The notes under the pieces were generated by a model, which made no database searches, was not told the DNA's origin, and saw only the letters and a list, made by a program, of their open reading frames with translations. From Ilyonectria destructans (lineage: Eukaryota > Ascomycota > Sordariomycetes > Hypocreales > Nectriaceae): a stretch of 64,000 bases of DNA. Shown here in pieces: positions 25,878 through 51,485 of this stretch. The stretch spans positions 1,302,001 through 1,366,000 of the forward strand of contig JAHEWK010000001.1 of the NCBI GenBank assembly GCA_020740775.1. Reading direction: 5' to 3'. A program made the position numbers and the translations under genes. Within the stretch, counting starts at the first letter, position 1. Each line of letters begins with the position of its first letter.

Positions 25878-28800
25878 TTAAGGTCCATGAAGTTCCTCAT
25901 ATGCCTTGGTCAACATCCTCTCCCACGGATCCATCCAGGCCACTAATGTGTTGTTTGTCGATCGTCGCTTGATAGTAGCCAATTCGTCCCTCGCCTTCAA
26001 GAGCTCGCCTCTCATACGTGGATTAGCAAGAACTCCTGGTTCCTTCATCTTAAGGAGAACCCTCCGAGCACCGAGCACCCCCTTCTCCATCCTCACCCGT
26101 TGCAGTAAGCCATGGTCCTGCGTCTCCTCGGGCAACTTCTCTGCCAAGTCTTGCGCCTTCATGATGCATTTCTCGGCCTTTTCAAGTTGTTCCATTTTTT
26201 CGACGGTAGGCATGTTTTTGTGGGATAGCTCACGGTGACATTCCGTCAGGTAAATGTTGGCCTTGATTATTCCGGTGACGTAGGCTGGCTGCGTGTTGTT
26301 GGCCACCGAAATGGCTTCCTCGTACTTGGCGATAGCTTCCTCCAATCTTTCGTTCTCCTTACACCCTCCATTTTTGAACAATTCGTATTCTCGGTATCCG
26401 AACTTGAGCAGGGTCAGGGTCTCCATGTGATGTAGCTCAGTTGGAGCGTTTGCTAGCATTTGGAGAAGGCGCCAATTATCGCTCTCCTTAATGTCTCCAA
26501 AGTCAGCACACATACACTGACAGATGAGTGATACCCAGAGAAAGTTCGACTTGGTCTTGTCGCGTATTTTGCTGAAGATTAGGGTACGTGAATCTGGGTC
26601 GTGCTTCAGACATTCAAGTGTCGACAACTTGTGGGCCATATACATGTCAACAGCAGCCGACATAGTCTTCTGGTCCAACTCGATTTCAAGCCTGGTCGAA
26701 TTGTTCTTCGATTGGAATACATCCCTGATTTGATTGTCGTCGCGGCTGGACACTAGCCATCGCACGTGTGGACATTGAGACGCAATCTTAGGAATCTCGC
26801 CTAAAACTAGTCCTCGTCCCTTCTTCTCACACTCATCCAGGGCGTCGATAATCAGATAGACAGGAGTTTGAATACCTTGTAGCGCTTTTAATAAGGTATC
26901 TGAGAGGCTGAAGACGGCATTGACGTAGTTGGGGTCCTCGGAGCTCCCGACTACTAAGGTTTCATCCCGAAGTGGTTTCAGCGAAGGGTCTTGGTCGGCG
27001 AGCATGTGTATTAGACCTTTGAGTAATGAAATTGCGTTGTTGATGCGTTGGTCAGTACGCTGGCAGAAGAAATAAGACACGATGCCATGCTCGCTGACCA
27101 ACTCGTCGACGATGCCCGCAAGCAACATCGTCTTGCCAGTGCCGGCACGACCTTTGACCCAGAGAAACCGATTTTCCGGGCCATTTCGCCACATCTTGAA
27201 ATCGGAGTGGTTGATGATCCACATGTATGAATCTCTAACCAGGCCGCCCTTGTCATACAGGATACGTGCCCTGTCAGCGCGAGGATTTGTCCCTGGGTGA
27301 TTCCCCAAACAGCTTTGGGACTCATTCAGAGGGCCTGAGATGCGGAGGGGTTAGCAGACCTAACTTCCAGCCATTGAGCAACACGACATCGTGGCCAAGA
27401 AATATTGTAACTACAGGCCGTAGCTGTCGTCTTCATTGTTCAACTCACCAAAGCTATTGTTAATGGTGCTAGCAATATTTTGCGTGCCACCCCGATTGAC
27501 GTTCACGGTGCCTTGGTCTGCGTTGTTGACTTGGTCGCCTTTGCCGGTGTGACTGAATTTTGCGATATTCTTCTCAGACATCCCCACTCGGCTAATGCGA
27601 TCTTCGAAAGCCTCATCCAAGAGATCTCGGTTCACGGCCTGGTCAGCCTTCTGTAGGACCCGTTCTGCAGAGTCACAACCGGCAGTCAGATCCTTCTTAG
27701 TCTCCACATCTTCAGTCTTCTTGATCAAGTCCTATTATATGTCAGTTAATTGTTCCCAGAAGACCAACATCGACTGAATATACCTTGAGCAGGAGATGGT
27801 ATTTCACCAATCGCTGTATGGGCTTCAGCAAGAAACCATCGAGAGTATAGAAGTCGGTCGCAACAGGGTGGTTAGAGACTTGAATCTTGTCAAAGACCTG
27901 GTTGGCCATCTGGGCAGCTTTGCGTTGGTTCGAGATGAAGGGCTGGTATATGTCAAAGGCATCCTCGTACGCCGAAAAGAGAGCTCCCCATTGCTGATTG
28001 ACCACGGGCATCGAATTGGTCGTCTCGACTCGAATGAGGAAGCGACGCTGGAAATCCAGGATTGCGTTGATGTTGAGGAAGATCTGGTGAATAATATCGC
28101 CAGGGATAGCACCCGTCTCTTCCAAAGTCTTCTTGAGGTCGTATAGATTTTCCAAGTCCTGAACATACTTGCGCTCCGTGTCGACCAACTCCTTTACAAT
28201 ATGATCTCGGTAGGTCATCTGAGAGCCAGCATTTGAGTCTGATGATCCCTCTTCGGGGTAGGGTTGCAGCTGCAGCAGGTAGCCACGCTGCTCGGCCAGG
28301 TCGAGGACATAGTTGACAACTTGGGTTACCTGTGAGGGATAGTCAGCACATCTTCAGCGCCTGTGCTAAAGAGGAGCATTCTGACAACGAACCTTGACGA
28401 AGCCACTCGTGTCATTACCGATCAAGTCTGTAATAACAAAGCTGTCCGATGGGCGGACATTAAGCTCCTTCATACAGGCTTCGGCGAATCTAAAGATGGC
28501 AATCTTGGACTTCTTGGCCTCATTGGCGCTGGGATCTTCCACCTTGAGCTCTTCCGCAGGCCGCAGTGAGTTGTAAATGGCTAGGAGGGGATAGCCCGTG
28601 CGGAAGAGGTTCCACAGGGTATCGACAGGGTCATGGGGGTCGAGCTGCTCGAGGAAGGGATCGAAGCCTGGGACCTGCGCCAGGCGCTGCTTGAGGGAGA
28701 TGCAGATCTGGTAGAGAGAGCGAGAGGCATCGGACTTTTGGTTGATAATGATCGAGGTGGCGAGGGCCGGGGGGGGCGGCGACGTAGGAGCGGGATTCAG

Positions 28801-30694
28801 AGGCTGTGGAACTGACAGGCGCTGTACCAAAGCCTGTATACTGTCAACTCCGAGTCGATTGCGAGCAAAATTCTTTATAGTTTCATCCCCGAGCAGTTCG
28901 AGCGTATGAAGCGGTTCATGGTCTGCAGCAATCCTAGGAAGGTACCCGTATGAGCCCAATCGATCTCCTGGCTCAGTATTCGGCGTGTCCTCGCTCTCTG
29001 CTACATTGTCGAAATCAAGAGGCGGTAATGAGCCTCGATCTTCCTTCACAGTCTCTCGAGTGCCTTTTTTGGAGCTCGTGCCATCGCTCTGCCATTGGTT
29101 TCCGTCTTGGGATCCCTCTTCTGCACAGTCCGGCCACGGTAACGAGTACAAAGCAAACTCTCGCAAATGCTGACCGACGTGCTCTTCGAGATTCTCGGCT
29201 GTTTCCGAACAGAATGGACAGTGCTCGAGGGTGGGGTTGATTGGCTGCGAACTGATTTCAACAATGAAAGGAAGCTGATCTTCCGGGAAGCTACCGGCGT
29301 GGTTGGTCTTCATATGGTCTTCGAGCTGTTCAGGTCGGTCGCAAACCAATGGCTCGTGGTCTGTCGCAAAGCACTGCCATCTCGTCCGATGTTGAGTGGC
29401 CATATGGGACAGCCATTCCTTGCTCGACGAGTAGATCTCGAATGGGTTGTCGCATTCCTCGAATACGCAGATGTATGCGTCGAGATCCTTCTTCACATGT
29501 TTCCTATTATAATGTTAGAGATATATGTATATGGCAGAGTAAATAACGAGTCTGGCGATTAAGTGCGAAAACACTTACGCCCAAGTCGTAGGGTTACGCG
29601 CTTCGCGGCTCTGAAGAATCAAACAGCAGTAGGGGCATACAAAATCCTTCCCCTCATTAGCTGCCCTGGGTGGAGGGGGAATGAGGATATGGTCCTGCTG
29701 TTTCAAGGGCGCAGAAATTGCCCTGGACAGTTGAGACGGCGCGGCAGCCTTGCGGTACGTCCCCACGTTCACTGTGGTTGCCTTATCCTGTGCTTGTGTT
29801 GTAACTGGTTCGAGTACTGATCGGAGGCTTGGCTTCAAGGGCTTTGGCTCTTGTATGAGAGATATGGGCTCGGATGGCTGTAGTTGCCGGCATACTTTAG
29901 GTGCCTCTGTGTAATCGACTTGTGATATGGCCCAGCTAATTTGGCGCGATCTCCTATACAAGATTCGTCTGTGGCGTATAATCATCGTCTCGGTTAGTCT
30001 GTCAATCAAGTGCTTCTCAAGGCATCCGGTATTGCGTTTGATGACGTGCTCGTAAAGCTGTCTTAGTCTAGCGATCATTTCGTCGGTCAACTCTGCTGAC
30101 TCCTTTCCCTCGGAATCCTGCCATTGAAAGTCTTTGGCTCGTCTGTTCTGATTGACGAAGCTGGCTTTCCTGACCAGGTTGGAGAGTCTGTGCAACCAGT
30201 CAATGCTCTGGTGGATTGACTGGAGCATCTCAGTCGAATCCCAGTTCTCAAAGTCTGGCTTTTCGGTGGTCGAAGGCGGGACAGGGCCGACAGGGTCGAT
30301 AGGGTCTTGGCCATCAGCCTCTTTTTCTCGTTGTCTCTCGGTGACATCTTCGCGAACTTGTGGGTCTCATTAGTTTTGGAACTAGACGCAGTCGAGCCTA
30401 TATCGAAACCATACGCTGATCGAGCCTGCAGTTGATTGTATCGACCTGTCTCAGAAACAGTTCTTTGACATCTGGGAGTTCTCTGATTCGGAAATCCAGC
30501 GACGCATGAATGTCTGCGAATACGCCGATATTGAAGGCCCATAGCTTGAACCGAGCAAACTCATCCTGGAAGCTGTTCTGAACACGGCTGGCATCACCGT
30601 GCTGCAGGTCCCATACTACGTCAGCGCTTTTCGAGAAGAGGTCAAGGCACCTCTTTGAGCACTCGCGAATGGTTTCTGGCGAATGGGTCGTCAT
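25878..30694 (-). CDS. NLR-like fusion: C2H2 region, Cdc24-type CH and RhoGEF (DH), NACHT, helical tail
   Basis: Six exons (30694-30415, 30356-29579, 29503-28393, 28329-27784, 27731-27449, 27334-25878) join in phase to 1484 residues. Order: an N-terminal helical domain found with fungal C2H2 proteins (1-330); zinc-finger-like segments, including CPYC near 335 and C-x2-C-x9-H-x3-H at 448-465; a Cdc24-type calponin-homology domain (about 610-735, with SLYQICISLKQRL, LWNLFRTGYPLLAIYN and NDTSGFVK); a DH/RhoGEF domain (about 761-905, starting YRDHIVKELVDTERKYVQDL); a linker with an Asn/Gly/Gln motif (about 973-999); NACHT with Walker A GRAGTGKT (1061-1068) and Walker B YLIIDALDEC; and a helical TPR-like tail. 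The NACHT part has no ATG of its own, and the GTGAGT...CAG intron preserves frame, which favours one gene. Two adjacent genes is the alternative. PH and PB1 domains of true Cdc24 are absent. It is divergent from the DUF7580-like gene. Confidence 0.78.
27450..27530 (-). other. amyloid-like Asn/Gly/Gln motif in the NLR linker
   Basis: The linker between DH and NACHT reads VNNADQGTVNVNRGGTQ followed by NIASTINNSF. It resembles the C-terminal motifs of the DUF7580-like protein and the SesA-like pseudogene (G-x-Q-x-x-A-x-T-I/M). In fungi such motifs pass an amyloid template from NLR to effector; that role here is inference. Confidence 0.5.
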
Positions 30695-31389
30695 GGCACC
30701 CCGAAGCTTGAAGGTGTCAACACATATGGAGGTGTTCAACCTCTCATGAGCGGGGTCGAATATTGGAGGTGCAGGGGCAATTCAGGCATAAAGCGGGACA
30801 AGTCAGAACAAGGGTCCGACCTCGGGTCCACCAACAGTACGTATCTTGTTCCTCGTGCGGAATTGGTTGGGTAGCGTGCGGATTACTGCCCAACAGGGAT
30901 CTCGGGCATGGGTGGCAGCAAGGCCGCACTGTGCAGAATGGGCGCCGGATCCGGGGTAAACAGTGGTTCCTGGTTCCTGGTCACCCAAACACTCCGTAAG
31001 AACTCTAGGAGAACCAAATCGTCACGCCATACGAGTAGCTAATTGAGGGAACCGAAGCCAGGTTGAAATGATGGTCACGTCTAACTATCAAAAGAAGTAA
31101 GTACCTCGCATGCTGCTGGAGGAGCTAAATTCCGATCCAATCCACAGTGCATAATGGTAAAATATACAGTGAGACTAGCTGTGGTCCGCAGGAGCCCGCC
31201 AAATTCTTGGGCTCAGCTTCCCACGAATTCTCGCGATGCCATTTGCAAGGGCTGCATCTCGCATCTTTGATCGGCTCCGAATACAAAACTCTGACTACTG
31301 GATTCTACCTGGCGAGAAGCGTCAATCTAGGCCAATTGGTCTCGGGACCGTCGCCGCCGGCTTCCAGCGTTTGACTCTGTGTTAACCTG
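30695..31389. promoter_or_regulatory. shared promoter of the NLR and DUF7580-like genes
   Basis: This 695-bp gap separates two divergent genes that share a protein motif. No gene is supportable inside it. Divergent NLR/partner pairs are known for fungal amyloid-signalling systems, so co-regulation is plausible. Confidence 0.45.
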
Positions 31390-33392
31390 ATGGGAAACGT
31401 ACTTGGCACTGCGACCGGATGCGCCGTGGAGGTGGGCCACAACTTGGAACTAGTATTGTCCGTCCTCCCGGTAGTGGGTGATCTGAGCAAAAGGCTATCT
31501 GACGAGACCAAAAAGAGGGACAAGAGATATGGCTACTTGGTCAATATCCAGACTTCAGCTCGTACCCTTATGGCCCACCTCGAGAATATCGCGGAGGATG
31601 GCGAAACCGAATCATTCGAACATCAGATAAACCAACTAGCCGACTGCCTTGAAGAGATTTTCAGCGACCAGGTGATCAGGCTCTCCAAGCTAAAAGTGAG
31701 TGACGCGAGATTTACATGGCTGACCAGTGCCGCTAACAGGTATGCAGGCGTCCAAGCACCCCCGACTCCATGCAGTCCGGGAGATCGCCTCGACATCGGA
31801 CGATTGGGAACCCAATAAGAGAGACTTGTTTGATTCCTCGAATTTGGAGAGCCTGGCTGCCTGGAATAAGCTACAACGCAACTTGGAGAGCCTTACTGAC
31901 GAACTGCAATCATACGGCGACAACGTGGACGAGACAGAAGAACCTAACATGCCCACGACATCCCAAGAGCCGGAGGAGGAGGTGTGCAATTTTGTCAATC
32001 GGGTATTTAATGCTGTTCTTTGCAGGTGCCATACCAAGTCCGAACGCGATCTCAGGCTGAGAATCGGGACGTACAAGAAGGGGAAATCGAAACCCATATC
32101 CGAGTCCTTATGTGTGTTACTCGCCCAAGACAAATCATTGCTGTGGCATGAATTACTTATCCATGATCAACCGAAGCCCAAGTAAGCTTGCAAGTATCCT
32201 TGATGGACCGCTTATTTATCTAACGCGACTATGCAGACGAAACGTTAAGTTTGTGAAGGTCGAGTGTCCAACGAGCAGGACGAGACATCGGTATCCAGAC
32301 AGTTCTGGAAGCACCTCATGCATCTGTAGTTACCTGAAAGCACATCCCGAACCAGACTCTCTACGACTAGACGTTATCCTCGATCATGATGTTTTACATC
32401 CGTCCGGCCTTCTTCCCAACGAACGCACATTCAAGCCAGAATCTCTACAGGAACACATTGACTTGAAGTCCTTACTTTCATTCGAAAGTAAACCGTGGAA
32501 TCTACAGTCGAAATGGCTTCTCGCCGTCACCCTTGCGTATGGCCTTTTTTACCTATATGATGGGCCTCGGGTAAAGTGGCGGCGGGAAAACATCCTTTTC
32601 TTCAAAGACGGGACTCACATCCCCTTGCGACCATTCGTTAGTACATCAGTATCCCAAAGCTGCGAGGAGGCAACCGACGATGGGCCCAGATTTCACAGAT
32701 ACCCCGAGATTGTCGAGCTCGGCGTCATTCTCCTAGAAATTCACCTGGGGCAGAGTCTGGAGTCCTTTTCCAAGGACGGCCGAGATATCACGACGGACAC
32801 TAAAATCTGGGGCCGCGCTTGCCTAGTCTACAGAAAGGAGGCGCATCGAATCGAATCTGTGCAGTACCGAAAGGCGATTGAGGCATGTTTGACGCCAGGA
32901 ACTTTTGCTGAGATCGACAGTGACGTTCAAAAACTGCGGTCCGTGCTGTTCCAAAGCGTCGTTCGACCACTTGAGGAAGAGCTGGCGAGGAATTTCCAGG
33001 ATGTACTGAATCCTGATAACTTGGATGAAGAAGCAGAGAAGTGCGACCTTGCATTATCCGTGCCTTTCTCGAACCGCCGGTCCACCAGCAGTAGTCGCTG
33101 TGTACGACGACGACAGGACGATCTACATGTCACTTCTCATTACAACGCAGTGCTTTCGTTGCAACCGGCGGGCCACGCTAAAGCCGACCAAACTCTGGTG
33201 ACCTCCGAGCTAACATCACTTCAGCCCCTGCTAGGCTCTGAACCGCATGGGGGGGCTGCGAGAAGCCTGGCTGACGTGCATTACAACAATACGAGCGCGG
33301 GTACCCAGAGTAACAACACCGGCACCGGCATACAATTGATTGCCAACACTATCCATTATAGTGTTAATGAACTCTGCCGCGACAAAGAGTGA
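31390..33392 (+). CDS. DUF7580-like fungal protein with C-terminal amyloid-like repeats
   Basis: Three exons (31390-31695, 31748-32181, 32237-33392) give 631 residues. An in-frame stop lies just before the ATG. Residues 1-250 are helical, with a hydrophobic N-terminal helix (LELVLSVLPVVGDL) and an acidic linker. Residues about 250-530 match my recollection of DUF7580 proteins: a degenerate kinase-like fold with WLLAVTLAYGLFYLY, RRENILFF, a PFVS segment and VELGVILLEIHLGQSLE. The last 35 residues hold two Asn/Gly/Gln units, NNTSAGTQ and NNTGTGIQ, then LIANTIHYS. DUF7580 domains often accompany prion-type HeLo domains in fungal cell-death proteins. With the divergent NLR this could be the effector or adaptor of a pair. 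Whether residues 1-100 form a HeLo-like membrane-targeting bundle is uncertain. Confidence 0.75.
33285..33362 (+). other. amyloid-like repeat motif at C-terminus of DUF7580-like protein
   Basis: Two consecutive units, NNTSAGTQS and NNTGTGIQL, followed by IANTIHYS. Length and composition match the motif at the end of the SesA-like pseudogene and resemble the NLR linker motif. Confidence 0.6.
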
Positions 33393-34143
33393 ATCAAGCA
33401 AACGAAGGGAGGCCTACTTGTGGGGGCCTGTATTTCGGCTTCCCCCGTGGTCGCGTCCGCTCCCACGAGGGGGCCACTGACTGGGAAAAGAGGCCCTTAA
33501 TTGGAAAAAGAAAATGGTACCTCTGAACAACGCCAATTTGTTAGGACTGCGAAGTCACTTCATTATGAGGATAGCCGCGATAATTCTGACCGGGGCGAAA
33601 TCATGTATTTATAAAGAGTGATAAAAGTTAAGTTGATAACTCATTCTTCCTCCTCTGTTGGAGACTGGAGCTAGGTCAGGTCAAATAAGCCGAAATAGCA
33701 CCAGATGAGGCCGTGCCGGCAGGATGGGTCATTACGTGCATCAGGCATCGCAGACATGAGTTTTCATTTCGATGAGACTGTTGGGACGCATACTGATGGA
33801 GGGGGGCTCGCGTCACGCGCTGAGGAGCTCCCATCTTTCTGGCACCGATCGCAGCCTGACGCCAATGTCCGACGCACTAGCACGCCCCGGCGGTGCTGAC
33901 CTGGGCGAGGCTAACTGCAACCATTAGATGTACCTGAAGCATGATACTATGAAGCGCAACGCGGTGTAAAGAGTTATGCATGTCTAAGATCTCGCTCGAA
34001 AGCCTTGTTGATCTCCGGCCATCGCCCGTCCGTCCCCCGATGAGCACGTCCTCCTGCCGTGTGCCTAGACTCCCGCCAACACCACCAGCGCCCTGGTCGT
34101 CCCCTGAGACGACAATTAATCAAAGCTCAGTCCTGCTCAAGGC
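33393..34143. other. intergenic between convergent genes
   Basis: 3' flanks of the DUF7580-like gene and the SesA-like pseudogene. Nothing else supportable. Confidence 0.5.
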
Positions 34144-34761
34144 TTATCTAGAACCGAAGTGCATCGTACCGGCGTGATGCTGACTCCCGGCGCCCGTGTT
34201 GTTATACTGAATGCCAGAGCCTGTATTATTGAGTTGGGGACTACAGTCGTAATGGTGGAACTGATTGCCTCCCTCGTTAGGCACAGATGGTTCCACCGCC
34301 GACAGCTCGTCAATCGCACCCCGCAATTCCTTAGCCTGCGCATCGGTCGCATCCTTGATAGCGCCGTCCTCTGCTATGGCGAGTATCGCTTCTATTATCC
34401 GCACCATCAGAATCTCCGCCGCAGTTTCCCTTCCTTACTGTCGCACCGCAGTAAGGTAGCGAGCGCGCCTCGACGTCTGTGGTTGAAGAGCGATTTGCTC
34501 GAATATGTCCTGTAAGATCTTAACCTTCTTGTCGCATTCCCCAAGCAAGTATATCGCGTCGATATTTCCGGCGAGGCAGATACCTTTCAGTTGATCTTTA
34601 ACAATCTCGAGAGTGTGCCGAACAAGGCCAGACCGTTAGCCCGCTGCATGAAAAGCCGGTAGGAGGTCTGTGTCGTCCTTCATAGTCTCATAGTTCTCCG
34701 CTGCCTTTCGGAGCGTAGTGATCGTGACCGCGATAGAATCAACGACTTCGTCGCCAAGCAT
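34144..34761 (-). pseudogene. SesA-like (NACHT N-terminal type) protein with two premature stops
   Basis: A single frame of 206 codons from the ATG at 34761 reads as a SesA-like helical domain (IAVTITTLRKAAENYETMKDD, LVRHTLEIVKDQLKG, then DATDAQAKELRGAIDELSAVEPS) with a C-terminal Asn/Gly/Gln repeat. Two TAA codons interrupt it, at 34638-34636 (codon 42) and 34437-34435 (codon 109). The domain pattern continues without gap across both, so these are nonsense changes rather than introns. SesA-type proteins are usually N-terminal domains of NLRs or stand-alone partners in cell-death signalling. The first codons may have been supplied by another exon, since the usual N-terminal helix is short here. 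Functional only if the stops are sequencing errors. Confidence 0.7.
34153..34230 (-). other. amyloid-like repeat motif at end of the SesA-like pseudogene
   Basis: Reads NNTGSGIQYNNTGAGSQ then HHAGTMHFG, very close in pattern to the end of the DUF7580-like protein about 0.8 kb away. Confidence 0.6.
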
Positions 34762-35170
34762 CTTTGACCGAACGACATGATTAGGCTTGGATGATTGAAT
34801 ACTGATTGTGTACGAAGCTTATGATGGTAGGGGCTCTAGATCGCAAAGGCAGGGTGCGAGTTCCTTTTTGTTTCGACAGCGAAACGAACAAGATATAATA
34901 CATCCACCCGGGCGCAATATTTGGTGGCCACCCTTTGACGCTGCCATGGCATGCTCACAACGAACTGCGGCCTAGCACGCCTCACTGCCAATGGTATAAC
35001 GGTGCTAGTTACAGAACAGTAAATGTACACCCTTCCAAGCCTCCTGAAGCATGACATTGTATCTTACAAGTGGATTGATTGAGACAGCTTTAGGGACGAT
35101 GGATGATCTTGTCTTTTGGTCTAGGAAGGAAGAAAGCTAGCTATTTATACCTAGGGATCTGACTGACCCA

Positions 35171-47388: not shown

Positions 47389-50300
47389 ATGGAGCCAGTG
47401 GGTTTGGCCGTCGGAATATCGGGCCTAGCTGGCCTGTTTACTTCATGTCTGGAAGTCATCGAAAATATTGATTCCTATCGGGACTTTGGACTTGATTCTC
47501 GGGCTCTGGCTGCCCAGTTTGATGCTGACAGACTTCGCTTCGATGAATGGGGGCAGGCTGTCGGTATCAAACACGGGAAGCTATCCGAAGACCATCATCG
47601 CGCTCTTGATGATCCTCGAAAATTATCCATGACTAAAGAACTCTTATACCTTATTAAGCAGATTTCTGGCGATTCCGATGATGCTCTCACTCAGCACGAA
47701 TTTTTGTTGGACGCCGAGCTCGCAGCACAAACGAGATTTACCCCAAACCGGGCCTGGCCTAATCGCAGTTCACTTGCAGCATCGAAGCGGCAAAAGATTG
47801 CTTGGGCATTGAGAGGAAAACGGAAGCGCACAGCACAAGTCGAACAGTTTGGGTCTTTGGTGCAACATCTACACACGCTCATTCCTCCAGACCCAGCACA
47901 AGGAGAATTAGCGACGTATAGTCATGACCCTGGACCTATGCAAGGTTCGAATGGAGCTCCTACTTGGTTATCGCGTTATCTTACTGAAGACAATAGGCAT
48001 CCTAGATAGCACTAGCCTTGTTGAGCTCAAACAGGCTCTGGTTAGGATAGAGGAGGAAATTGAAGGCAAGGTTTATTCTACTGTACAAGTCACAACCCCA
48101 TGCTAACAAGCACAGCCGAAACACGACGAGACCTGCACGCCTGGCTGGGTCGTCCTTCTCCCACCGACCTCTACAATGACTCCACCCAGAAAAGAGTAGA
48201 CGACACGTGCGATTGGATTCTAGATCGCCCTCTGTTTACCACGTGGCTTTTGCCTGACGAGGCAGGGCAAATTGCCAACCTGCTGTGGGTGAATGGACCG
48301 GCTGGGTTCGGAAAGACCATATTATGCGCCAGGGTTGTCGAACACCTCTCATCGTCGCTGGAGACACCTGTTGCGTACTTTTTCCTATCATCAAATTCCG
48401 AAGGCCGTGACGACCCATTTTCAGCGATAAGGTCATGGATAGCCCAGGTGATCTCTCGCGACCAGGCTGCGTTCGACTTGGCCCGTAAGATGTGGTTGGC
48501 TCAAGACGAAAAATCGCGACGAGAACGAACATCATTACGCTCTTCCGAGAAATTGTACATGCCGTGCCGAGTTGCACATTCGTTCTAGATGGGTTGGATG
48601 AATGCACGTGGATCGGGGAGGACCGAACGGGTCAGGACACTGTCGCCAGGTTCATTGAGGCAATTTCGTGGGCGATTGCGGATACTACCAGTCGAATTAT
48701 GATCGTCAGTCGTGACGAGCCTGAAATCCGACGGGCTCTGAGTGATATCAGAGGGTTTCTCGAGCTCAAGATTTCCCCTCAAGATGTTCGACACGATGTA
48801 CTCTTGTTCTCCAGAAGCATCGTCGACCGAAAACTGTCCAAGAAGGATGAAATCACGAAGAGTGACATCTCTCTGAAGATGGCAGACCGCTGCAATGGTC
48901 AGTTCATATGGGTAAAGATGCAAGAGGGCTCCCTACGCAATTGGAAAAACAAGAAGCAGCTCGAAGATGCCATTGATAAGACCCCAGCTCTTCTTGAACA
49001 CCTCTACGAACGGAACTGGACGAGGATGTCTCGACTTCCTATCGAAGAAAGGAACCGTGCTTATGATCTGTTACGATGGGCTGCGTTCGCTCTACGTCCC
49101 CTTACTGTCTGCGAGATCGCAGAAGCGGTACTCATCGAGAACGAACGTGATCAACTACACCTTGACGAGATTCCTGACTTTGTAGATGAAGAATACATTG
49201 ACAGCGAGATTCTTGGTCCGTGTGGATCTCTTCTAGAGATCAGAAACTCCACATCACAAACCTGCGCTGCCTTGAAGACGGTCCATCTGGCCCATTTCTC
49301 GATTAGACAATATTTTCTCTGCCACACCGCAGCTCAAGGGGAACTCCTGATCGCCAATCACAACTTACAATACTCCAACGAATCGCTAGAAAACGCCAGA
49401 CTCGCTATTATGTGCCTACGCTATGTTGATTATCAGGACGTATGGGAAGGTGTTCTTCACGTTGAGGAAGGCAATGTCAAGAGATCATTCCGGGATTACG
49501 CGTCAGGTGTCTGGTATCAACATGCGACCGCAAGCGGATCAAAAGACCCTACCTTGGTTGATCTCATGAATGGGTTGTTTGACACACGCAATCCTAACTG
49601 GGATCGATGGAGAAAATGGGTCGACTTGAACAATGAGGCGCTACAGATGTATGAAAGTTCGGATGAAAGTCCGGCGAGCCCCCTGCATTATGCTTCGCAA
49701 CTTGGCTTGGTCGAAGTTGTACGGCATCAGCTAAATAATGGCAACAGTAGAGTGGATGGCAAACACGCATGCGGAACAGCATTGGGGGTTGCTTCTGAGA
49801 GGGGAAACGTGGACGTAGTTGATCTACTACTGGAGGCACGGGCCGACGCAACAATCACAGACAGCGCCGGATGGACGCCTCTACACTCCGCTTCAGATCG
49901 AGGACATACGCAGGTGGTGAATCTGCTTCTAGAACACGGCGGTGATGCAATGGCTACCACAAACACCGGATTGACGCCACTACACGCAGCATCCGAGTCA
50001 GGTCATGTAGACGTCGTCAACCTGCTTATTAATAAGCTGGCTGATTTATCGTTCACAGATGCTAACGGATGGACTCCATTGAATACGGCTTCGTTCAATG
50101 GGCACACTCGGGTGGTTGAGTTACTTCTCGCCAAGGGAGCTGACTTGACGGTTCCAACTATCCACGGATGGATGCCATTACATGCGGCTTCATTCAACGG
50201 TCGTATTGAAGTAGTTGAGCTACTTCTCCGCCATGGGGCTGACTGGATGGTTTCAGACACCGAGGGATGGACGCCATTGCATGCGGCCTCATCCAAGGGA

Positions 50301-51485
50301 CACACCAAAGTAGTTGAGTTACTTCTCGACCAGGGAGCTGATCGGAATGTTGCAGATACCGAGGGATGGACGCCAATATACGTGGCATCCTCCAATGGAC
50401 ATGCCGAGGTAGTGAACCTACTTATTGAAAAGGGGGCCGATCTAATGGTGGCGACCAAATCTGGGTGGACACCAATAAACGGAGCATCGTCTGAAGGATA
50501 TTCTGAATTGGTAAAGATCCTACTAGAACAAGGGGCTGATTTGAATGTTGCGAATAACCTCGGATGGACACCAATGATCTCATCGTCGGCCAACGGATAT
50601 GCTGACATTGTCAAGCTACTTCTCGACTGGGGAGCTGATAGCTCAATCGTATCCCACCAGGGATACACAGCACTACACACAGCAGCACTGCACAGATGTA
50701 TTGATGTAGTCAAGGTATTGTTAGAACATGGGGCTGATTTGAACGCTACGAATCATCTCGGATGGACGCCAACAATCACGTCGTCGATCTATGGATATGG
50801 TGACATCATCAAGCTACTTCTCAACTGGGGAGCTGATGGCACAATTAAGTCTCAGGATGGACGCACGGCATTGCACGCAGCAGCATCGCTTGGGCATCTT
50901 GAGGTGGTGAAGGAATTAATGGAGAGATTGGGCGATCCCGGAGCCACTACCAAGGACTATTGTGGTCGCACGCCCTTAATTCTTGCAGCCAGAGCAGGGC
51001 ATCATCAAGTTGTCATGATGATGTTGGCCAGCAGACTATCAGCAAGTGTAAAGGACTGGCACGGCACAACAGCGCTGTTCGCTGCAGCGAGAAACGGGCA
51101 TACTAAGACAGTGGAGCTTCTACTCGCGACCAACGACGTCCAAGTTGACCAAACAGACGGCTTTGGTCGGACACTCTTCTGGTGGACTGAGTGGAATGGA
51201 CACCACCAAATTACGAAGCTCTTACGACACCATGCCGAGAAGCAGGGCACCAAAATCGCCTACAACGATACTCCAACAACTGTCACTATCGTGCCCTACG
51301 ACATGGATCAGCCATATTGCGACGCGTGTTTGTTATGCATCCCACCTGGCTGCAGCTTCTTCCATTGCTATAGCTGCAGCAGGAGCAACTTTGATCTCTG
51401 CTTGCAGTGTACTGAATTTGGAGTCAAGTGCATGGACACATCCCATGAGTTGGTGTTATTTAAGCCTAGTACAGAAACGTCGTGA
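47389..51485 (+). CDS. HeLo-NACHT-ankyrin-ZZ NLR, frameshifted in this sequence
   Basis: Exons 47389-47944, 47997-48065 and 48116-51485. Intron 2 is GC-AG (GCAAGG...CACAG). Residues 1-185 are a HeLo domain (MEPVGLAVGISGLAGLFTSC, RDFGLDSRALAAQFDADRLRFDEWG), the membrane-active cell-death domain of HET-S-type proteins. Next come the RRDLHAWLG linker, NACHT with Walker A GPAGFGKT (269-276) and Walker B FVLDGLDEC, about 16 ankyrin repeats (about 49670-51230) and a C-terminal ZZ-type zinc finger (CDAC...CYSC...CLQC). In the A5 run at 48509-48513 the frame shifts by one base: the 5' frame would stop after about 365 residues (HeLo plus part of NACHT), while the 3' frame is open for 2.9 kb. One missing base would account for it (about 1331 residues intact), so this is either a sequencing error or a recent null allele. 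Confidence 0.8.
49850..50890 (+). repeat. 99-bp ankyrin-coding repeats with high internal similarity
   Basis: Units repeat every 99 bp (for example GGATGG starts at 50067, 50166 and 50265). Most start with a GWTPL-type codon run and contain GHTxVVELLL. Similarity at the nucleotide level is high enough that long antisense frames stay open across the array. This suggests recent unit duplication or homogenisation. Confidence 0.75.

Follow-up and report, generated by a model that had tools for sequence, protein, structure and literature searches.

Do neighboring genes that carry the same amyloid-type motif act in one signaling pathway, and what was their arrangement before the motif appeared on them? 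This question is raised by a locus of Ilyonectria destructans that lies within the 64,000-nucleotide stretch of DNA analyzed here (the window), where a predicted NOD-like receptor (NLR) gene, a divergent gene encoding a DUF7580 protein and a SesA-like pseudogene all bear the sigma motif. An initial annotation had put them forward as a candidate NLR–partner amyloid locus. Our comparisons indicate that the divergent arrangement is an older two-gene module, made of a C2H2-family gene and a DUF7580 gene, which would predate the version with sigma. We regard as evenly balanced the proposal that this head-to-head module is present here in a sigma-amyloid form, in which the NLR signals to the DUF7580 protein by sigma templating.

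A sigma motif common to three neighboring genes

The motif of the three genes is the fungal sigma amyloid motif (Pfam PF17106, NACHT_sigma), already known as the sigma element of the sesA–sesB–het-eN cluster of Nectria haematococca (PMC3321046, in the part of that paper covered here). A profile search, as suggested in the initial annotation, matched PF17106 to the places where the motif had been noticed, namely the NLR linker (27450–27560, minus strand), the C-terminus of the DUF7580 protein (33285–33362, plus strand) and the C-terminus of the SesA-like product (34153–34230, minus strand). The form NNTGxGxQ given for all three does not extend to the NLR linker, which reads NNADQGTVNVNRGGTQNIASTI. 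The E-value is 2.1e-4 for the DUF7580 open reading frame (ORF) and 1.5e-6 for the SesA piece; for the NLR it is 0.038 with the exon, 0.17 with the spliced protein and 2.73 in a six-frame search of the 71.7 Mb I. destructans genome. The curated cut-off of 27.6 bits is passed by the SesA piece only (28.7 bits), the DUF7580 (21.8) and NLR (14.5) motifs falling below it.

Against a profile assembled from the 17 sigma stretches at nine other loci in the same genome, the motifs reach 28.2 (NLR), 25.5 (DUF7580) and 26.1 (SesA) bits, a weaker kind of evidence for the NLR motif taken alone. None of 3000 shuffles of each motif core matched its score, which rules out chance composition as the source of the sigma likeness. 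Pairwise shuffle tests bear out the expected similarity of the NLR linker to the DUF7580 (p = 0.0008) and SesA (p = 0.0026) motifs, and that of the latter two to each other (p = 0.0002); the corresponding values for the cores alone are 0.00085, 0.0081 and 0.00005. The locus combines a sigma motif ahead of NACHT in a receptor with a C-terminal one in a neighboring gene, a combination that crosses one predicted intron.

The DUF7580 and SesA motifs have 14 of 26 residues in common, with 47 of 78 nucleotides identical and identical codons at 6 of the 14 common residues. These values rule out a recent copy or gene conversion of sigma between the two genes.

An older head-to-head pair of C2H2 and DUF7580 genes

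At E ≤ 1e-5, the first 494 residues of the NLR matched the genome at 24 places, which merge into 19 C2H2-family loci, and DUF7580 gave 40 matches at E ≤ 1e-3, merging into 36 loci. Seventeen head-to-head pairs, the studied locus included, account for 17 of the 36 DUF7580 loci and 17 of the 19 C2H2 loci, against a chance expectation of 0.15 pairs. An eighteenth DUF7580 locus lies <8 kb from a C2H2 gene in a different orientation. The 2.5 kb that follow on that strand contain an S8 protease match, in the same orientation, at 8 of the 36 DUF7580 loci and a PNP_UDP match at four (followers chosen by eye from the match lists and then checked by computation). ORFs were inspected at eight of the other 16 pairs (L035–L042). 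The C2H2 partner ORF at one of them (L037:215–1192) ends in GIDFGTTSV, which resembles the start of an Hsp70-type ATPase; a Pfam scan of this ORF gave no match.

In other species the pairing rests on the order of locus tags, the head-to-head orientation being established only in this genome. A search with residues 1–578 of the NLR found 65 relatives elsewhere. On contigs of equal length, C2H2 and DUF7580 genes carry consecutive locus tags in Fusarium kuroshium, F. oligoseptatum, Trichoderma semiorbis and T. aggressivum, and tags two apart in T. cf. simile. Tag neighbors were found for five of the nine tagged DUF7580 relatives; the other four have no neighbor among the 65 C2H2-family relatives. 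The tag of a C2H2–RhoGEF gene in Diaporthe batatas is 66 numbers from that of the DUF7580 relative, their contigs being equally long. Literature on acuF/C2H2 and on divergent pairs held nothing relevant by titles and abstract openings.

The C2H2 proteins vary in the domain that comes after one conserved stretch, GDRLGSYGYLPRIAADHEPL at the studied locus (28909–28968, minus strand), which lies shortly ahead of the point where the C-terminal domains of the relatives diverge. This domain is HET in F. kuroshium (E = 5.6e-20). Two T. aggressivum proteins have DUF7580 (P0165, E = 4.9e-14) and PNP (P0142, E = 1.1e-6) in its place. P0161 and P0167 (scanned) and P0166 (precomputed label) have NACHT, P0149 has NACHT_N (precomputed label), and the Diaporthe protein P0141 has a RhoGEF that lacks calponin (E = 4.9e-8); at the studied locus the stretch is followed by Cdc24–sigma–NACHT. 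No HET match was found in P0136 of F. oligoseptatum, the end of which resembles the stretch before HET in P0137.

For both partners, the same Fusarium loci supply the closest relatives, with 69–72% aligned identity on the C2H2 side and 61% on the DUF7580 side. The F. kuroshium partners, which are among these closest relatives, have HET (C2H2 side) and an S8 protease (DUF7580 side) at their ends. Both of these ends are replaced in the studied pair, which has sigma on both partners; as predicted from sequence, its architectures are C2H2–Cdc24 calponin/DH–sigma–NACHT–TPR-like and DUF7580–sigma, DH standing for Dbl homology. The head-to-head pair has the appearance of an exchangeable module for self-destruction or an immune-type response.

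Sigma loci in the genome and the proposed receptor–partner link

Sigma is rare in the genome: at E ≤ 10, PF17106 gave 21 matches in all, of which the studied locus accounts for four (two in one SesA frame). With one SesA double match dropped, the remaining 20 form ten sigma loci, a lower bound, as a sigma-like ORF start at locus L012 escaped the search. PF05729 NACHT matches occur within 10 kb of six of these loci, and at the studied locus three sigma-bearing genes lie within 7 kb. Only one of the 36 DUF7580 loci, the studied one, has a sigma match, and it is also the only one with a NACHT match within 10 kb; the same holds among the 19 C2H2-family loci. The sole sigma-bearing DUF7580 locus is the one whose neighboring C2H2-family gene has both sigma and NACHT. 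These counts, together with a literature search that found no paper naming DUF7580 (most subscription papers and bioRxiv preprints being outside its scope), agree with the earlier view that the pairing of such a receptor with DUF7580 is new.

Several observations weigh against a sigma-based link between the NLR and the DUF7580 protein. The conservation in relatives that the initial annotation asked for holds, by locus tags, for C2H2/DUF7580 adjacency in Fusarium and Trichoderma, but not for sigma, which was seen on such a pair in no other genome. A simple pattern scan of all 80 relatives found C-terminal sigma-like letters only in the window's own protein, and none at all in three C2H2–NACHT relatives. 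Beyond these it picked up a stretch resembling PP in P0012 and, inside two further proteins, three lone GxGxQ matches that we attribute to chance. Four of the ten sigma loci have no NACHT match within 10 kb, and the last NLR intron (27335–27448) is a prediction. The third sigma gene of the locus, SesA, is broken, a possible sign of decay. Sigma is weakest in the NLR linker (12.5–14.8 bits versus the cut-off of 27.6), which scores 72 with a SesA protein on contig 12, compared with 48 and 43 for its neighbors. In known sigma clusters, according to the covered part of PMC3321046, the motifs of one cluster are closer to each other than to those of other clusters, a likeness that the NLR linker does not show. 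Since this linker is not especially close to its neighbors' motifs, specificity between NLR and partner stays putative and the motif is not private to the locus; what stands of the original proposal is that the NLR and the adjacent genes have the motif in common.

The DUF7580 motif for its part scores 76 with an NLR on contig 10, 74 with a PNP protein, 73 with the adjacent SesA and 48 with the adjacent NLR. Along with the broken SesA gene, these scores would suit neighbors that are unconnected, the DUF7580 sigma serving another sigma receptor or a sigma–PNP gene ~43 kb away and the locus being a decaying sigma cluster. We judge this to be decidedly improbable, because the head-to-head pairing is a repeated unit and sigma is on both partners only at the studied locus.

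That sigma–PNP gene belongs to a second sigma cluster, about 40–43 kb downstream of the locus (L012:4941–8825; contig C1:1375940–1379824). The cluster comprises a 198-residue protein with a C-terminal sigma and without a SesA match, a PNP_UDP protein ending in sigma, and an ORF that opens with a sigma-like stretch and continues directly into WD40 repeats, without NACHT. This last ORF would be a sensor without the oligomerizing part, and its presence weakens the idea that the sigma–PNP locus has no sensor of its own and is hence served by the window NLR.

A Cdc24 segment within the receptor

The RhoGEF–NACHT sensor described initially does contain both domains, and its RhoGEF is a captured segment of Cdc24, spanning the calponin and DH regions and fused between the C2H2 part and sigma–NACHT. 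NLR residues ~600–957 match the CDC24 calponin domain (28390–28632, minus strand; PF06395, E = 7.8e-28 on the ORF and 5.9e-31 on the spliced protein) and a RhoGEF (DH) domain of Cdc24 type (27648–28200, minus strand, with an intron at 27732–27783; PF00621, E = 7e-31 on the spliced protein). The DH region is up to 87% identical to fungal Cdc24-type proteins. Calponin and DH are the only parts of the full Cdc24 set found by domain scan, PH and PB1 being absent from the NLR, while the Mariannaea homologue P0016 has all four.

Residues 600–1180 gave 600 matches, from candidates filtered by length (0.55–1.75 times) and shared words, with 7993 scored. The 120 listed are all Cdc24-type by precomputed domains and cover ≤65% of the query; none of them is a Cdc24–NACHT fusion, which, if present, should rank first. 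No protein of the length of our NLR model is among these 120, so the public annotation of the gene probably differs from our model of six exons. The Cdc24 motif KYPLLLK reads KYHLLLK in the NLR; the proline is kept in 119 of the 120 listed proteins, the remaining one having no match to the pattern.

The segment and the genome's own Cdc24 (L018) are 82% identical over 354 codons, with nonsynonymous (dN) and synonymous (dS) divergences of 0.106 and 1.18, a ratio that mixes evolution before and after capture and is no proof of present function. Two introns lie at identical places in both, after GFVK and LLLK. In a tree of 16 rows, the segment, the Mariannaea homologue and the L019 paralogue stand together across a 98/90 split and the genome's own Cdc24 groups with Dactylonectria (98/92); the root is unsure, six of the 13 inner forks are open and L019 has a long branch. 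The placement across this split rules out a recent capture from the genome's own Cdc24. The L019 paralogue (L019:4371–6138, contig C74) is a second, strongly diverged Cdc24-like gene with no NACHT match nearby.

That the calponin–DH unit is complete and this close to Cdc24 would be expected if the segment were itself the output, NACHT oligomers clustering DH and activating Cdc42 while sigma aids NLR assembly and the DUF7580–sigma protein is a regulator or co-factor. The weak NLR sigma would fit too, as would the RhoGEF domains, without a CDC24 calponin match, that are fused to the C2H2 family in D. batatas P0141 and in the metagenome proteins P0174 (scanned) and P0177 (precomputed label). We nevertheless consider such a cis output unlikely, given the absence of PH and PB1, the histidine in place of the KYPLLLK proline, and the sigma motifs on DUF7580 and SesA, which it would leave unexplained.

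The proline-to-histidine change could mean lost catalysis, as would suit an integrated bait, by which the NLR would guard the polarity machinery and sigma would relay the alarm to DUF7580. Plant NLRs can carry integrated domains, and a near-intact piece of a housekeeping protein within a receptor resembles them; the position of the segment with the Mariannaea homologue and L019, apart from the genome's own Cdc24, is also in keeping with a bait. This reading too seems doubtful to us. We know of no attacker of fungal Cdc24, a literature search on fungal decoys with exchange factors gave nothing relevant by titles and abstract openings, and bait and effector resemble each other in sequence.

Literature searches combining four of the terms Cdc24, NACHT, NLR, fungal and RhoGEF had no match, within the scope given above. 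In the portions covered of the papers closest to our subject, RhoGEF is absent from PMC9815663; RhoGEF, CDC24, GEF (guanine nucleotide exchange factor) and DUF from PMC12258605; RhoGEF, GEF, calponin and C2H2 from PMC4986451; Cdc24, Cdc42 and decoy from PMC12881547; GEF and decoy from PMC10197012; and RhoGEF and GEF from PMC3321046.

The DUF7580 protein

The DUF7580–sigma gene (31390–33392, plus strand; exons 31390–31695, 31748–32181 and 32237–33392) encodes 631 residues that are 100% identical, over the full length, to the public I. destructans protein EDB80DRAFT_4793. Its DUF7580 domain, which is weakly kinase-like, extends over 31970–32990 with an intron at 32182–32236 (PF24476, E = 3e-38). 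The protein opens with MGNVLGT (31390–31410), an N-myristoylation-type start by its pattern. Such a start is present in 8 of 15 DUF7580 proteins versus 1 of 180 other proteins beginning with M; six of the seven DUF7580 proteins without it seem N-terminally incomplete by alignment (P0009 by eye), and P0011 truly lacks it. The DUF7580 protein is probably membrane-anchored.

A profile of nine DUF7580 domains returned six PDB chains at E ≤ 10, namely two kinases (E = 0.071 and 0.085), a COMMD-like protein (0.39), MLKL (1.7) and two conglutins, and a search with the whole DUF7580 alignment returned subtilisin-type proteases only. HeLo matched one of five paralogue N-termini (E = 0.0035, below the HeLo cut-off) and neither of the window protein's own two exons examined. 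A putative helical N-terminus followed by a domain with weak kinase likeness would recall MLKL and fungal HeLo-like kinase proteins, neither likeness being significant for the window protein.

DUF7580 had been cast as the effector of the pair. Several relatives carry S8 or PNP at the place of sigma (P0007 and P0012 being without either), so the DUF7580 protein may be a regulator rather than an effector. Near the C-terminus of P0012, residues 606–612 read NGGTQLG, like the PP core NxGxQxGxN (PMC9815663, in the part covered), and may be another amyloid-type ending of a DUF7580 protein, independent of the first. Our guess is that the ‘predicted kinase-like domains’ joined to S8 proteases in PMC12881547 are DUF7580.

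Gene models and layout of the locus

Gene models were predicted by joining exons through GT–AG sites and reading frame. The NLR gene (25878–30694, minus strand) is predicted to have six exons (30415–30694, 29579–30365, 28393–29503, 27784–28329, 27449–27731 and 25878–27334) and to encode 1487 residues, with a C2H2-family N-terminus, Cdc24 calponin, DH, sigma, NACHT and a TPR-like tail in this order by domain scans. A C2H2-like zinc-finger block of the N-terminal family (29164–29637, minus strand, with an intron at 29504–29578) is marked by invariant or near-invariant Cys/His columns in the alignment of relatives. Sigma occupies a short exon immediately ahead of the NACHT exon. The NPHP3_N/NACHT nucleotide-binding domain (26742–27227, minus strand; PF24883, E = 1.3e-33; PF05729, E = 1.9e-12) includes the P-loop GRAGTGKT (27129–27152, minus strand), the combination expected of the signal transduction ATPases with numerous domains (STAND). 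TPR models match the tail weakly, at E = 0.05 or worse.

C2H2 and calponin share one uninterrupted ORF, and the end of DH and sigma share another; the C2H2–calponin and DH–sigma fusions are therefore direct. Joining sigma to NACHT requires one predicted intron (27335–27448). Four other genes of the genome with sigma <300 bp ahead of a NACHT match have it in short ORFs of 56–104 residues, 213–272 bp off; the similar geometry in the window, where the sigma ORF has 106 residues and lies 291 bp ahead of the NACHT match, supports the sigma–NACHT gene model. A SesA–sigma ORF lies ~0.9 kb ahead of NACHT in a fifth gene, on contig 17. The start codons of the NLR and DUF7580 genes are separated by a divergent spacer at 30695–31389, which gives the 695 bp reported initially.

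The SesA–sigma gene (34144–34767, minus strand) is a pseudogene, as had been supposed: a genuine SesA domain (34387–34734; PF17107, E = 5e-22) is read in a single frame that two TAA stops interrupt, and is not part of an open gene. Repeat-induced point mutation (RIP) is a possible cause of the damage, the indices of 0.82 and 1.06, versus 0.67 and 1.25 for the window, being shifted towards RIP but probably short of the usual thresholds. Elsewhere in the window, positions 48489–51485 hold an ORF of 998 residues that is rich in ankyrin repeats.

Discussion

If the head-to-head module has here taken a sigma-amyloid form, binding of a ligand would cause the NACHT protein to oligomerize, and the stacked sigma motifs of the oligomer would nucleate a cross-beta fold. 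This fold would be templated onto the C-terminus of the DUF7580 protein, itself probably membrane-anchored, and formerly also onto that of SesA. At the plasma membrane, the output may be cell death or an arrest of polarity, and the captured Cdc24 segment would provide local Cdc42 activation or a bait for an attacker of Cdc24. We infer amyloid formation, GEF activity, the function of DUF7580 and the direction of signaling. The direction from NLR to DUF7580, modeled on het-S/nwd2 and ses/het-eN, is the one that we rank first, because the NACHT protein has the oligomerizing part; alternatively, DUF7580 may be upstream, with sigma recruiting the Cdc24-bearing NLR, since S8 and PNP relatives have an enzyme at the position of sigma.

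The locus resembles described systems in part, as far as the covered portions of the cited papers go. Like the sesA–sesB–het-eN cluster (PMC3321046), it has a motif of the same family in the part of a NACHT receptor preceding NACHT and at its neighbors' C-termini, and a SesA gene; unlike in that cluster, the SesA gene is broken and ~960 residues, including the Cdc24 part, precede sigma in the receptor. A receptor and a neighbor with a common amyloid motif are also features of the fungal amyloid NLRs with HRAM, PP and sigma motifs (PMC9815663; PMC12881547), in which receptor sigma is mostly (by relative majority) at positions 50–99, whereas that of the studied NLR is at ~965. The combination of a further domain and sigma in one receptor has a precedent in four HeLo-like plus NLR28 (sigma) receptors (PMC9815663). 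HET-Q2-like S8 proteases control gasdermins (PMC10197012; PMC12881547) and occur in two-gene clusters on receptor-like proteins, including those with kinase-like domains; the DUF7580–S8 relatives fit this description, whereas the studied protein has no S8 part and the neighbor found for it is a C2H2-family gene. With Cdc24/Scd1, the exchange factor of Cdc42, the NLR shares calponin, DH and two intron positions of the genome's own Cdc24, and it differs in lacking PH and PB1 and in its fusion to C2H2, sigma and NACHT.

More tentatively, and with some doubt, we suggest that the head-to-head C2H2/DUF7580 pair belongs to a class, so far undescribed, of fungal two-gene modules for recognition and killing, with exchangeable C-terminal outputs (HET, S8, PNP, RhoGEF, NACHT and sigma). 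The two partners in Ilyonectria would each have exchanged a covalent output for a common prion-like motif, coupling by amyloid templating a Cdc24-bearing receptor that senses or acts on polarity. As far as our limited literature search goes, this is the first case known to us of a fungal receptor with a piece of the Cdc42 polarity machinery, somewhat like the integrated baits of plant NLRs. Two-gene modules that swap their outputs would be a route to new immune pathways. The Fusarium pairs with covalent outputs (HET, S8) and the Ilyonectria pair with a prion-like motif offer a natural comparison, which makes it testable whether amyloid templating can stand in for covalent fusion.

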